A DNA stretch of 64,000 nt from Chthonomonadaceae bacterium (lineage in GTDB: Bacteria > Armatimonadota > Fimbriimonadia > Fimbriimonadales > Fimbriimonadaceae), in the NCBI GenBank assembly GCA_015709495.1, contig CP054189.1:372001-436000 (forward strand), in the 5' to 3' direction. Both the position numbers and the translations under genes were made by a program. The notes beneath the pieces are model-generated. The model had not been told where the DNA came from. It made no database searches and saw nothing but the letters and a program-made list of their open reading frames with translations. Positions 35,869-42,029 of this stretch are shown in pieces. How positions within the stretch are numbered: position 1 is the first letter of the stretch; every line of letters starts with the position of its first letter.

Positions 35869-36675
35869 TCATCGCGCCTCCTTTGTTGGGCGAGATTCGA
35901 ATTGGTCGGGGCTCATGTACTCAAGGCTTGAGTGCATGCGCTGTTGGTTGTAGATTGCATCGATGAAATGCTCCAGCGATGCTTGGGCTTCGAGGAAGGA
36001 CCCATAGCGGTTGCGGTCGACTTCTTCGAGCTTCACGGTCCGAAAGAAGCTTTCCATGTGGGCATTGTCGCGCGTTTTCCGGGAGCGGAGAAGCTGGTTT
36101 TGCCGCCTGCGTCGCGGATGAGCCTCATGTATCCGGAGGCGGTGTAGGTCGAGCCTTGGTCGGAGTGGTGAATCCAGCCGAGGTTTGGTTTGCGGGTTTG
36201 CAGAGCCTTCAAGAGGCAATCGCGCACCAGGGCTTCGTCGTTTCGGCGCGAGAGGTGCCAGGCCACCGCTTTGCGCGAATACAGGTCCATGAGGGCGGCC
36301 AGGTAGAGCGGCCCCGAGTCGGTGCGCACCCGCGTGGTGTCGGCGACCCAGATCTGGTTGGGGGCCGAGGCGCTGAGGCCCTTGAGCAGGTTGCCCGCCC
36401 GGCGATCCCGAGCGCCCGGCCGGGTCACCCCGCGGCTGCGCGGCCTTCGCGCCATCAGCCCGTGCTCGCGCATGAGCTTGCGAACTGCATATTCGCTGAC
36501 CGCAACGCCCTCGAGCTGAAGCGCGCGCCGAACCCGGCGGTAGCCGTAACCCAGGAACAAGACCACCAGCCTCTCGATCGCCAACAGCAACTCGGGACGC
36601 GATTTCTGCCTCTGCGGAGCGTACACCAGAGAGCGAGATATGCCCACCAATTGGGACATGCGGTGAACCGAAAGG
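35869..36675 (-). pseudogene. IS3 OrfB remnant, truncated and frameshifted
   Basis: It matches the last ~808 nt of OrfB in copy 1 but lacks the start (removed with the 193-bp deletion). It has a single-base loss near 36074: ACCGCG in copy 1 reads ACGCG here, shifting the frame between PGK and the NAHMESFF motif. The first two catalytic Asp codons and the Glu codon are all present but split between frames. Confidence 0.88.
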
Positions 36676-37971
36676 TTTGTGTCCCAGCTCGTGGTGTAGA
36701 AAGAGGCGCCATTCCGTCCGGTTGCTTTGTGAGAAGTCAACGGAGGACGAGAATGGCAAACAATAGCATAGCGCTCTTGGAGGGCGCGGAAGTTAGGGAC
36801 ATGCTTCGAGAGTTGGTCAAAGACGCACTTTCGGAGCTGATGGAACTCGAGGTGGAGGCTCAAAGGGAGGCTTCAGACCGGAAGACCTGGAGAAACGGGT
36901 ACCGCGACCGCAGTTGGAAGACGCGCGTGGGAGACGTAGAACTCCGGATTCCCAAGCTCCGCACGGGCAGCTACTTCCCGAGCTTTCTTGAGCCTCGCCG
37001 GGGCGTGGAGAAGGCTCTCGTGAGCGTAATTCAGGAAGCGTACCTGCAAGGGGTTTCCACCCGGGCGGTGGACGATCTGGTGCAGGCTCTGGGAGGCTCG
37101 GGGATCTCCAAGAGCGAGGTCTCTCGCCTTTGCCTGGAGGTCGAGGGGCGGGTTCGGGAGTTCCTGGAGCGTCCGCTCGAGGGGAGCTTCCTTACCTCTG
37201 GCTGGACGCTACCTACGTGAAGGTTCGCGACGGCTCTCGGATCGTGTCGAAGGCGGCGGTGGTGGCGATCGGACTGAACGAAGAGGGGCGCCGCGAGGTT
37301 TTGGGGATGCGCGTCGGGCACGCCGAGACGGAGGAGTTCTGGACGGAGTTCCTGCGCTCGGTCCTCGACCGGGGCCTTCGGGGACGAGGCTGGTGGTCTC
37401 AGACTCCCACTCGGGGCTCAAGAAAGCGATCGAGCGCTGCATGGGCTGCCAGTGGCAGCGCTGCCGGGTGCACTTCATGCGCAATGTGCTGGCGCGGGTT
37501 CCCAAAGGGCGCAAGGAGAGGGTGGCCTGCCTGATCCGCACGGCTCTGGCTCAGGCCGATATAGAGACCACCAAGGCCAAGTGGCTGGAGGTCGCCGCGC
37601 ATCTGGAGGAGACCTTTCCGGAGGCGGTTCGGCTCATGCGGGAGGCGATGGAGGACGTGCTGGCGCACCGGGCGCATCCGCCGGGTTTGTGGCCGCAACT
37701 GGCCTCGACCAACGGGCTGGAGCGGCTCAACCGGGAGGTGAAGCGCCGCGCGGACGTGGTGCAGATATTCCCGAACGAATCCGGGGTGGTGCGGCTGGTG
37801 GGAGCGATCCTCATGGAGCAGCACGACGAATGGCAAGTCTCCCGGCGGCAGGCTCCCAAGGAGAGCCTCGGGCTGCCGAGCACGAAAAACGACGCGCTGC
37901 TCGCAAGAGCAAGCGGATGGTGATATCATGGAACAGGCGGATGGCGCCCTCTACACCACGTCCTGGGACAC
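36676..37971 (+). mobile_element. IS256-family insertion sequence nested in IS3 copy 2
   Basis: A 1296-bp insert with inverted repeats GTGTCCCAG(C/G)(T/A)CGTGGTGTAGA near both ends (36679 onward and ending 37971), followed by GGCGCCAT on each side. It carries an IS256-type transposase gene in three frames. The insertion has no 8-bp target duplication because 193 bp of the host IS3 is gone; an adjacent deletion is the simplest cause. Confidence 0.88.
36753..37923 (+). pseudogene. IS256-family (Mutator-like) transposase, two frameshifts
   Basis: It begins at ATG 36753 with CGGAGGAC upstream. Frame 1 runs to 37184 ([20 protein letters not shown] and other Mutator motifs). Frame 2 covers [16 protein letters not shown], with the first catalytic Asp, and frame 3 from about 37383 covers LVVSDSHSGLKKAIERC (second Asp) and NGLERLNREVKRR (Glu). 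Both shifts are one missing G in runs of four G (37181-37184 and 37380-37383). Restoring five G in each would give an intact ~390-residue enzyme. Confidence 0.88.
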
Positions 37972-38118
37972 GACCTTGAACTGGTCCACCCAACGATCCA
38001 GCATCCCCGGAGACAAACCATGCTCCCGGCACACCTGAGCCTTTGACCGCAAGCCAGAAACGATCTCCTGGCATATGCCTAACTTGAACTCACGACTGAA
38101 ACTACGGCGAGACACCAT
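37972..38118 (-). pseudogene. IS3 OrfA N-terminal remnant
   Basis: The first 49 codons of OrfA from copy 1, ending at the IS256 junction. It contains most of the helix-turn-helix. Together with the OrfB remnant on the other side it shows the host IS was one element. Confidence 0.85.
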
Positions 38119-38220
38119 CCTATTTTCTCCTGACAGAACAAGTAGGTGTCCACAAATTTCGCCGCAGTGCAGGACGCCTTTTCGATGGGACGAAGGGGAG
38201 GTCTACCCTTGCCTCGCCCC

Positions 38221-38273
38221 AATAAAATAAGAGCGCGGCTACTCGCTGGGCAAGCCCACCTTTGACCGCGCTC
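38221..38273 (-). terminator. Terminator at the 3' end of the 38.2-38.7 kb RNA candidate
   Basis: The minus-strand hairpin GAGCGCGG / CCGCGCTC (38266-38273 with 38231-38238), with an inner TGGGC/GCCCA stem, is followed by TTATTTTATT. It is oriented to end transcription coming from 38.7 kb. Confidence 0.75.
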
Positions 38274-38718
38274 TCAACTTCGAGACGCCGGATCTTCCGA
38301 AGAAGGCCCACGCCTCAAAGTTTGTAGACTTCTTGCATTTAGGTTAGGGTCCGAAGACCCTACTACTGGTCCGCATTCTGTCTACTGCGGCGCCGCTTGG
38401 ATAGGATTGGCCGAAGCCTCACCTGTCCTGCTGTGCGAGGAATACCGAAGTCTCCCTCACACGGCGCGGTCGCCGCGTCCTTCTGTTGCCGCCGGACAGG
38501 GCCTTGGCTCTCCGACTCTACGCTCGCTGTACTTTGGTCCAAGCCGCCCAGCGAGGTTGCAGAAGGCTCCCGACGTCTCCCGTTTCCGGGACCCGCCTCC
38601 TCCCGAGAGAGGATTACGGATTTCTCCGCAAGGGCAGTGCACTTTCGGCGAAGGGAATGTCGTCTTCGCCGTCTCCGGCGCACCGGAGCGGTGATCCGAT
38701 TCCATCACCGTCAAGCGC
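38221..38718 (-). ncRNA. Candidate large structured non-coding RNA (~490 nt), family unknown
   Basis: No protein frame here resembles a gene. The minus strand from 38718 to the terminator at 38221 shows many paired elements. They include CTCCGG-TGCG-CCGGAG, GGCGAAG/CTTCGCC, CGGA-GAAA-TCCG and CCCG-GAAA-CGGG (GNRA loops), and GTGTGAGG/CCTCGCAC. There are also three UUCG-type hairpins, and long-range CCTGTCC/GGACAGG and GCTTGGA/TCCAAGC. A TTGGGT-17 bp-TATCGT promoter precedes it. GCAACAGAA and AGACAGAAT resemble RNase P segments, but the near-universal GAGGAAAGUCC is absent, and no tRNA-like end for tmRNA is seen. So I leave the family open. Confidence 0.55.
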
Positions 38719-38724
38719 ATGAAT

Positions 38725-38753
38725 ACGATATCACGCTTTTTCGCAATACCCAA
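38725..38753 (-). promoter_or_regulatory. Putative promoter of the structured RNA
   Basis: The minus strand reads TTGGGT (38753-38748), 17 bp, TATCGT (38730-38725). Transcription would start near 38718, just before the first hairpin of the candidate RNA. Confidence 0.55.
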
Positions 38754-38762
38754 GCATTTTTT

Positions 38763-38815
38763 CGGGGGTTTATCCACAAACCTGCGTGGAAAAGGCAGGG
38801 ATAACTGTGTTAACT
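38763..38815. promoter_or_regulatory. Cluster of DnaA-box-like 9-mers
   Basis: A perfect DnaA box TTATCCACA at 38770-38778. An inverted TTTTCCACG (8 of 9) is 6 bp away at 38785-38793, and an inverted TTATCCCTG-like 9-mer follows near 38796-38804. The sequence is slightly AT-richer than its surroundings. No dnaA, dnaN or other replication gene is in the window, so this is only a candidate DnaA-binding region. Confidence 0.5.
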
Positions 38816-40247: not shown

Positions 40248-42029
40248 ATGAGCGGAACAACTCCGACTACGCTGGGCAAGTATCAGATCATCCGCGAGAT
40301 AGCGCGGTCGAACGACATCGTGTACGAGGCGTACGACCCACTGATGAATCGTCGGATCGCTTTGAAGGAGCTCGCGATGCCTTCTGGCGCGAGCGACGCC
40401 CAACGCGACGATCGCATCCGGAGGTTTTCGCGGGAGGCTAAAGCCGCCGGTTCGCTGAATCATCCCAACATCGTCACGATATTTGAGTTCGGCGAAGACT
40501 CCGGCAGGCACTTCATCGCCATGGAGTTCTTGGAGGGCCACAACCTCCGCAACGAACTCGACACCCACGGATTCCTGGCTGCCGACCGGGCCATCGAGAT
40601 CACCCTCGAAGTCCTGGACGCCCTCGACTATGCGCACAAGAACGGCGTCATTCACCGTGACATCAAGCCGGAAAACATCCAGCTACTACCCGATGGCAGG
40701 GTGAAGCTCACTGATTTCGGGATCGCGAGAATCACCTTCGAGCCTAACCTCACCATCGACGGGCAGGTCTTTGGGACGCCGAGCTACATGTCGCCGGAAC
40801 AGGTCGTGGGCCGCGAGATCGACGCCCGGAGCGACGTTTTCGGCGTCGGCGTGATCCTCTATGAGATGCTCTCGGGACAGAAGCCGTTTCAGGGCGACAG
40901 CGTGGTGAGCATCACCTACGGCATCGTGAACAGCGAGCCTAGCCAACCTCCCCAAGCCAACCACGCCGTGTGGCAGGTCCTCACCAAGGCGCTCGACAAG
41001 AGCCCGGCGCTGCGGTTTGCCACTGCCCACGACATGCACAGGGCGCTGGAGTCGGCCAAGTCCGCTTCTCGGTCCCAAGTGATCGACTACGACCTTCAGC
41101 TCTACGGAGGCTCAGGGACTTCGCATTCCCCGCCGCAGCCGGCCGCGCCTCCGATCGGCAACCCCTACGTCGGGACGCCTTACGGGAACCCGTACATGCC
41201 CGCCCCGCAGCAGCACCCTTACAACCCCTATCAACCCGGGACGCCACCCATTACGCAAGCTCCGCATGGGCTTCCCCCAGGTCAGATTCCGGTCTACTAT
41301 CCGCCTCCGCCTCGCGCGCCCCTAATCTCCCCGGAAACCAAGCAGTTTCTCGGGAAGATGATGCTGACATTGATCGTGCTCGGCACCCTCTTTGCCCTCG
41401 TCATCGCCATCATCCAAGGGTTAGGAACGCTGATCGACCGAATGCAGACGCAAGCGGCGGACCTCCCGATGCGGGAGAGAATGGCTGGGCAAGACCCGAA
41501 TGTGCCCCTCCATGAAAGGATCGCCGAGCGTGAGAAGATCATTCCCGAACTGAAGAGCGAAGTCAACCGCCGCACCGAGGAACGCAACGTCGCCAAGCTC
41601 TACGAAGCCCAAGGCCGCGAATACGTTCGCGTGGGCAACCTTGTCGCCGCTGAACAGGCGTTCCGAAGCGCGATCGCCAACGACCCACAAAACCCCACAT
41701 ACTACAGGCTGCTTGGCTCGCTGTTTTCTCAGACCGCAGTTCAGGAAATGGACATCGAGCAGCGCATGAACCTCTGGAAGCAGTCGATTCGCAACTGGGA
41801 GTTCGCACTGACGTTCGAGACCAACGAAGCGATCCGGAAGGACAGCGCCGCGCTGCTGGCCTCCGCGTGTTATCGGCTGGCGAACGACTACTTGAATCTG
41901 GGGCAAGAGGCTGAGGCGCGGTCGCTGCTGTATTCAGGCCGAGAAGTCGCGGACCCGAGCTCCGAAGTAAGCGTTGCGATTCAAGGTTTGCTCGACAGGC
42001 TCACCCGCCCCGACGACTCAAACCCCTAA
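40248..42029 (+). CDS. Ser/Thr protein kinase with transmembrane helix and TPR-like tail
   Basis: 593 residues: kinase domain about 12-270, a Pro/Tyr-rich linker, one membrane helix near 370-395, and a helical C-terminus with two or three TPR-like repeats (AEQAFRSAIANDPQNPTYYR). The kinase keeps the ATP lysine (IALKEL), HRDIKPENIQL, DFGIAR and GTPSYMSPEQ. The glycine-rich loop is odd: REIARSNDIVYEAYD lacks the GxGxxG pattern. The APE segment is SPEQ. It may phosphorylate proteins with weakened ATP handling. The ribosome site is AAAGG. It has no adjacent phosphatase gene. Confidence 0.9.
   Translation: MSGTTPTTLGKYQIIREIARSNDIVYEAYDPLMNRRIALKELAMPSGASDAQRDDRIRRFSREAKAAGSLNHPNIVTIFEFGEDSGRHFIAMEFLEGHNLRNELDTHGFLAADRAIEITLEVLDALDYAHKNGVIHRDIKPENIQLLPDGRVKLTDFGIARITFEPNLTIDGQVFGTPSYMSPEQVVGREIDARSDVFGVGVILYEMLSGQKPFQGDSVVSITYGIVNSEPSQPPQANHAVWQVLTKALDKSPALRFATAHDMHRALESAKSASRSQVIDYDLQLYGGSGTSHSPPQPAAPPIGNPYVGTPYGNPYMPAPQQHPYNPYQPGTPPITQAPHGLPPGQIPVYYPPPPRAPLISPETKQFLGKMMLTLIVLGTLFALVIAIIQGLGTLIDRMQTQAADLPMRERMAGQDPNVPLHERIAEREKIIPELKSEVNRRTEERNVAKLYEAQGREYVRVGNLVAAEQAFRSAIANDPQNPTYYRLLGSLFSQTAVQEMDIEQRMNLWKQSIRNWEFALTFETNEAIRKDSAALLASACYRLANDYLNLGQEAEARSLLYSGREVADPSSEVSVAIQGLLDRLTRPDDSNP

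Follow-up and report, generated by a model that had tools for sequence, protein, structure and literature searches.

The RNA locus and its boundaries

We analysed a 64,000-nucleotide (nt) stretch of the genome of a Chthonomonadaceae bacterium (assembly GCA_015709495.1, contig CP054189.1, positions 372,001 to 436,000; family Fimbriimonadaceae of the Armatimonadota in the GTDB lineage), here called the window; the source genome, G000, is a single contig of 2.9 Mb. On the minus strand of the window, between a promoter and a terminator, lies what appears to be the gene for a large structured non-coding RNA (ncRNA). A sequence-only reading had proposed that this gene-free stretch encodes either a new class of RNA or a strongly diverged known one. 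The features that carry our analysis are listed here in window coordinates.

38221..38720, minus strand: inferred RNA gene of ~500 nt, between promoter and terminator; fold z = -8.39, homologues in 15 genomes
38725..38753, minus strand: sigma-70-type promoter, TTGGGT-17-TATCGT; homologues have TTGG(C/T)..-17-TATNNT in the same place
38221..38275, minus strand: intrinsic terminator (GCUUGC-loop hairpin, then a U-rich tail), read from sequence; similar endings in other copies
38479..38566, minus strand: conserved core, junction of P8, P9 and P10 with near-invariant CUUGG (38543-38539) and its CCAAG loop complement; models R1 and R2
38523..38555, minus strand: hairpin P9, loop CUUGGACC; compensatory change in 7/9 pairs
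38491..38516, minus strand: hairpin P10, loop GCCAAG; compensatory change in 5/8 pairs

Several elements of the sequence-only reading were borne out. The TTGGGT-17-TATCGT promoter is found at 38753-38725, and a TTGG...-17-TATNNT promoter is present across copies. The terminator at 38275-38221 consists of a GC-rich hairpin followed by a U-rich tail (GAGAGCGCGG...CCGCGCUCUUAUUUUAUU); a terminator hairpin and U tract also mark the end of the other copies, apart from G076, whose end we did not find. Transcription most likely starts at about 38719, placed from sequence to within a few nt, and stops at 38221. The GCUUGC loop, a CUUG tetraloop, is frequent in the terminator hairpins (window 38275-38221, L131, L137, L142 and L143).

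The predicted fold of the 533-nt minus strand has an energy of -253.1 kcal/mol, against -204.9 +/- 5.8 for dinucleotide shuffles (z = -8.39, 0/100), and contains the many hairpins, with loops such as GAAA and UUCG, that had been described. Long reading frames vary from copy to copy, and 1-nt indels separate the copies; there is thus no conserved protein frame at the locus.

Homologues in a single bacterial family

Our covariance-model searches covered 291 genomes of the phylum Armatimonadota, of which 85 genomes in 32 genera belong to the family Fimbriimonadaceae. A plain DNA search yielded a same-genus copy in G001 and a same-family copy in G012, and a model (R1) built from the 75 bases common to these two recovered further members. 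P8 was absent from R1 and P10 was one column off; the members were therefore not selected for P8 or P10. The corrected model, R2, has 102 positions and matches 16 loci in 15 genomes with E values of 1e-15 to 1e-27. All 16 lie in Fimbriimonadaceae, in five of the 32 genera (g1, g12, g13, g15 and g19), and no copy was found outside the family among the 291 genomes. Below the members the score drops from 67 to about 27 bits. Weak matches to the model elsewhere (about 16-27 bits) were set aside; none of those inspected has the CUUGG/GCCAAG core, and they resemble chance matches or coding sequence.

Sister species of g12 retain the RNA at 93% identity, and across all copies its length ranges from about 340 to 520 nt. 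One genome, G013, has two diverged copies (L139 and L140), each with promoter and terminator, and one of these adjoins the kinase gene that is also found in the window. The tree built from the cores of the copies is mostly unresolved.

A covarying three-way-junction core

The core carries the strongest evidence for a selected structure. Over 15 distinct copies, 85.9% of cells are paired and both sides have changed in 17/29 pairs, and 0/500 shuffles reach any of five measures. When helix partners were slid as a control, paired cells fell to 32-47%. Identity among copies goes down to about 45-60% in the core, with four helices still kept. In the window, P8 is formed by CCUUCUG/CAGAAGG, and CGUAG joins P9 to P10. 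Loop and junction residues are nearly invariant (CUUGGA, GUAGCG). The loops of P9 and P10 are complementary (CUUGG/CCAAG, 97% of cells paired over the 15 copies, almost invariant), and a loop-loop contact between them is predicted.

Covariation extends beyond the core. Three g19 copies (G073, G075 and G078) with 70-72% identity contain 33 pairs with both-side changes over their full length, and in a seven-copy alignment, A3, both sides have changed in 28/74 predicted pairs. Between the sister species G012 and G092, one hairpin shows a C-G to U-A exchange. At window position 38530, P9 differs between this genome and G094 of the same species, with A here and C there (RNA sense), and the change breaks a G-C pair of this conserved hairpin in the window copy.

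Two long-range pairings had been suggested from the sequence, and each holds in part. In GCTTGGA/TCCAAGC, the GCTTGGA element (38538-38544) is real, and the partner kept across copies is GCCAAG, in the loop of the hairpin that follows (about 38500-38507); TCCAAGC (38395-38401) shows no sign of general partnership. In CCTGTCC/GGACAGG, CCTGTCC (38494-38500) serves mainly as the 3' strand of the covarying P10. This strand could alternatively pair with the 3' domain at GGACAGG (38422-38428), as CCUGUCC/GGACAGG in the window and as UCUGCCG/CGGCAGA in its sister genome (G001, L131), a possible alternative fold seen in these two genomes only.

Domains around the core

38632..38719, minus strand: 5' domain, with hairpins P2 (38710-38689), P3 (38688-38673) and P4 (38670-38647) enclosed by helix P1
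38572..38630, minus strand: linker hairpins P5 (38630-38615), P6 (38612-38596) and P7 (38594-38572), from the predicted fold
38276..38477, minus strand: variable 3' domain, including a UAGAC...GUCUA hairpin with GCGGACCAGUAG (38384-38325)

The hairpins of the 5' domain covary in G073, G075 and G078 and in part in alignment A3, and P1 is recognised by eye in most copies; the unconstrained minimum-energy fold of the window pairs this stretch inside P1 differently. Counterparts of P5-P7 covary in relatives, with a tentative one-to-one match to the window hairpins. The GCGGACCAGUAG hairpin is found in G000 and G001, of the window genus, and in G015. Other genera have a different 3' domain, itself covarying; this part of the RNA is exchangeable.

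The g12 copies L132 and L133 (G012 and G092) are short, at 342-344 nt, and have no large 3' domain. Copies from g19 and g13 have UGACGA and GGUGUACAUC motifs in common. The latter, a near-palindrome (GGUGCACAUC in one copy), is kept in the 3' domain of L137-L144 and could be a dimerisation loop. It is the only sign of homo-oligomerisation, which, like a dedicated protein partner, would mark an RNA that works in the manner of OLE, ROOL or GOLLD.

An inverted repeat upstream of the promoter

38770..38793, minus strand: inverted repeat TTTTCCACGCAGGTTTGTGGATAA, resembling DnaA boxes, ahead of the promoter; fixed position in nearly all copies

The repeat precedes the -35 element by ~16 bp and in most copies reads TTATCCACA-N6-TGTGGA(A/T)AA, intact or decayed. 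At no more than one mismatch, the RNA promoter is the sole genomic site of this dyad in five genomes (G000 and four relatives). At the same threshold G012 has no site genome-wide, and a reversed control pattern gave no site in any genome tested. The DnaA box consensus is TT(A/T)TNCACA, and both TTATCCACA and TTTTCCACA are known as DnaA boxes from E. coli and cyanobacteria. The promoter is probably under the control of a DNA-binding protein acting at this dedicated repeat, and by sequence DnaA is the first candidate.

Genomic neighbourhood

Flanking genes vary between genera in both identity and orientation. Downstream of the RNA lies a citrate synthase-like or fabH-like gene on the opposite strand, a leuS-like gene on the same strand, or, elsewhere, other genes. 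Because the neighbours differ in this way, the arrangement indicates that the RNA is a free-standing gene and not a leader. In g1 and at one of the g13 copies the RNA has a kinase gene as its neighbour, a linkage suggestive of vertical descent at this site; the window kinase gene (40248-42029) has relatives in Fimbriimonadaceae, Fimbriimonadales and other Armatimonadota. An Hfq-like gene is present in the G012 and G092 flanks. In the window, apparently broken IS3-like and IS256-like transposase genes occupy about 35900-38180, starting right after the RNA terminator. In the same-species genome G094, a citrate synthase-like gene stands beside the RNA in place of these insertion sequence (IS) genes.

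Searches against known RNAs

At the gathering score, two tRNAs are the only Rfam matches anywhere in the window. Relaxed thresholds at the RNA locus gave only noise, including RNaseP-T, which scored 12.9 bits (cut-off 60 bits; E = 3). The window RNA and 13 homologues, compared with 4227 Rfam families, gave no relevant match (OLE, ROOL, GOLLD, raiA and 6S included). Phage and plasmid searches found no relative of the RNA. A viral origin was rejected: six IMG/VR pattern matches are all without the core and without a model match.

RNase P RNA is marked by the universal CR-I element, GAGGAAAGUCC, and by P4 with its partner. The resemblance to RNase P in the sequence-only reading does not hold up: CR-I is absent at the locus and present in the canonical gene, which lies elsewhere in the genome (224 bits). 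One look-alike segment, GCAACAGAA, forms the 3' side of P8 and appears in relatives as GCACCGAAA, GCAUCGGGA and so on. The other, AGACAGAAU, is in the fast-evolving 3' domain and reads AGACUGAAG in the sister genome. Nor does the locus match tmRNA (RF00023; true gene at G000:1145430-1145786, 177 bits) or signal recognition particle (SRP) RNA (RF00169; true gene at G000:286586-286684, 51 bits). 6S RNA is a long hairpin with an open central bubble that binds RNA polymerase; the window RNA has no Rfam match to it, and its fold is multi-branched.

Discussion

We are highly confident that the window RNA represents a genuine class of structured RNA. As judged from sequence, it is the founding example of a new class, so far confined to Fimbriimonadaceae, that no known family matches. 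Homologues with many compensatory changes, together with the lack of a match to a known RNA, favour the first of the two alternatives raised by the sequence-only reading. The class is new as an RNA class, and in a wider sense it appears to join the large orphan bacterial RNAs. No earlier report of such an RNA from Armatimonadota turned up in the two genome-wide RNA screens searched or in literature combining Fimbriimonas with ncRNA, a search that left out subscription papers and preprints, where an earlier description is possible.

Taken as a whole, the evidence makes it rather likely that this is a free-standing, regulated, structured ncRNA that acts in trans in an architectural role. The basis for this view is what can be read from the DNA: the fold, the covariation, the layout of promoter and terminator, the conserved repeat and the changing neighbours. 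The RNA would be transcribed from its own sigma-70-type promoter and end at its own terminator, with the promoter under a DNA-binding protein at the dedicated inverted repeat, DnaA being the first candidate. Three parts would make up the folded transcript: the 5' domain, a core in which complementary hairpin loops lock the three-way junction, and a 3' domain open to exchange. The molecule would persist as a stable architectural RNA acting in trans. Its rigid core, with near-invariant residues in loops and junction, could bind a protein, another RNA or a second copy of itself, while the periphery would be free to vary and evolve fast. By analogy, we lean towards a scaffold mechanism, in which the RNA brings about RNA-protein or RNA-RNA assembly. 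Both trans action and the identity of the regulator are points that we infer. A more specific version, in which synthesis of a large architectural RNA is tied to DnaA and the replication cycle via the genome-unique promoter site and the RNA forms an RNA-protein particle or a homodimer, seems unlikely to us.

Other roles would fit parts of these data. The RNA could be a trans-acting regulatory small RNA (sRNA) that pairs with mRNAs, with the large fold serving just to shield or display a seed. Its own promoter, terminator and regulator site, and the Hfq-like gene in the G012 and G092 flanks, are consistent with this role, which we consider unlikely, though worth keeping in mind: what is conserved is a compact junction whose loops pair, rather than an exposed unpaired seed, and peripheral single-stranded segments are little conserved. 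The compact, pseudoknot-like core with its near-invariant residues might instead suggest a ribozyme of an undescribed kind, self-cleaving or trans-acting; with no Rfam ribozyme match and no evident substrate or cleavage site, this is improbable. A CsrB/RsmZ-style role in sequestering CsrA is very improbable. Such sponges carry many GGA motifs in hairpin loops. The csrA gene is present in nearly all genomes of the family, including G000, and some hairpin loops of the RNA do contain GGA, but the GGA count is at or modestly over expectation in most copies, the predicted fold usually places 0-3 GGA in hairpin loops per copy, and csrA is universal whereas the RNA is patchy and its conserved core is not GGA-based.

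The patchy distribution in 15/85 genomes and the IS genes adjoining the window copy could point to an RNA that is in decay or belongs to a mobile element (phage, plasmid or intron) and has no host function. However, neither phages nor plasmids nor matching viral contigs yielded a relative; the neighbours are mostly ordinary chromosomal genes, with the kinase linkage common to g1 and g13; the g12 sister species keep the RNA at high identity; and the G094 copy has no adjoining IS genes. We thus hold this origin to be quite improbable. An intergenic, highly structured RNA that ends in a terminator also resembles a cis-regulatory leader (riboswitch or attenuator) of a downstream gene, but which genes lie downstream, and in which orientation, varies between genera, and the length of about 340-520 nt and the fixed promoter also speak against a leader, which we regard as scarcely likely. 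The look-alike segments and the sub-threshold RNaseP-T match might have pointed to a highly diverged form of RNase P, tmRNA or SRP RNA; this reading is refuted for practical purposes, as canonical genes of all three lie elsewhere in the genome and P8 and the variable 3' domain account for the look-alikes.

Several considerations weigh against a trans-acting architectural RNA under dedicated control. A copy is recognisable in only 15 of the 85 family genomes, so the RNA is either dispensable for the family as a whole or diverged past detection. The predicted loop-loop pairing is without covariation support of its own because CUUGG/CCAAG is almost invariant. Structure, alignment and test share sequences, and the covariation counts therefore lean somewhat to the given structure. 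The scaffold role is argued by analogy, and transcription and transcript size are ones that we infer from sequence. As for DnaA, no cluster of DnaA-box-like sites that would confirm the dyad was found near dnaA, and some dyad sites read TTATCCCCA.

Large structured RNAs without an assigned function are few and have repeatedly proved to be surprising machines. If the more specific, DnaA-linked version were correct, the window RNA would be an architectural RNA coupled to the replication cycle, in a bacterial lineage in which no such RNA was known before. Its fold is strongly supported, a set of relatives is at hand, and the dedicated promoter site should make its regulator findable.

Among known systems, RNase P RNA (RF00010) falls in the same size range and has a few short look-alike segments, but differs in architecture and in its CR-I. 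CsrB and RsmZ are likewise free-standing RNAs with several hairpins, some with GGA; unlike them, the window RNA has no strong GGA loop enrichment and has a conserved junction core instead. In style, its nearest counterparts appear to be OLE, ROOL, GOLLD and raiA (PMC12286853; PMC11706538), none of them a relative by the tests run. Like the window RNA, OLE (Ornate Large Extremophilic) RNA is bacterial, large, non-coding and free-folding, and its multi-domain structure is conserved; the window RNA is shorter, occurs in other organisms and has no Rfam match to it. ROOL and GOLLD are, like it, large orphan structured RNAs, and kissing loops hold ROOL cages together (PMC12286853). The window RNA has no sequence match to either and no phage or plasmid relative, and its complementary loops are predicted to lie within one molecule. 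The raiA motif RNA (ModT) is a compact structured bacterial RNA of 205 nt (PMC12286853) with its own function and wide conservation, in over 2,500 species (PMC11706538), whereas the window RNA, at about 340-520 nt and with no Rfam match, belongs to one bacterial family.
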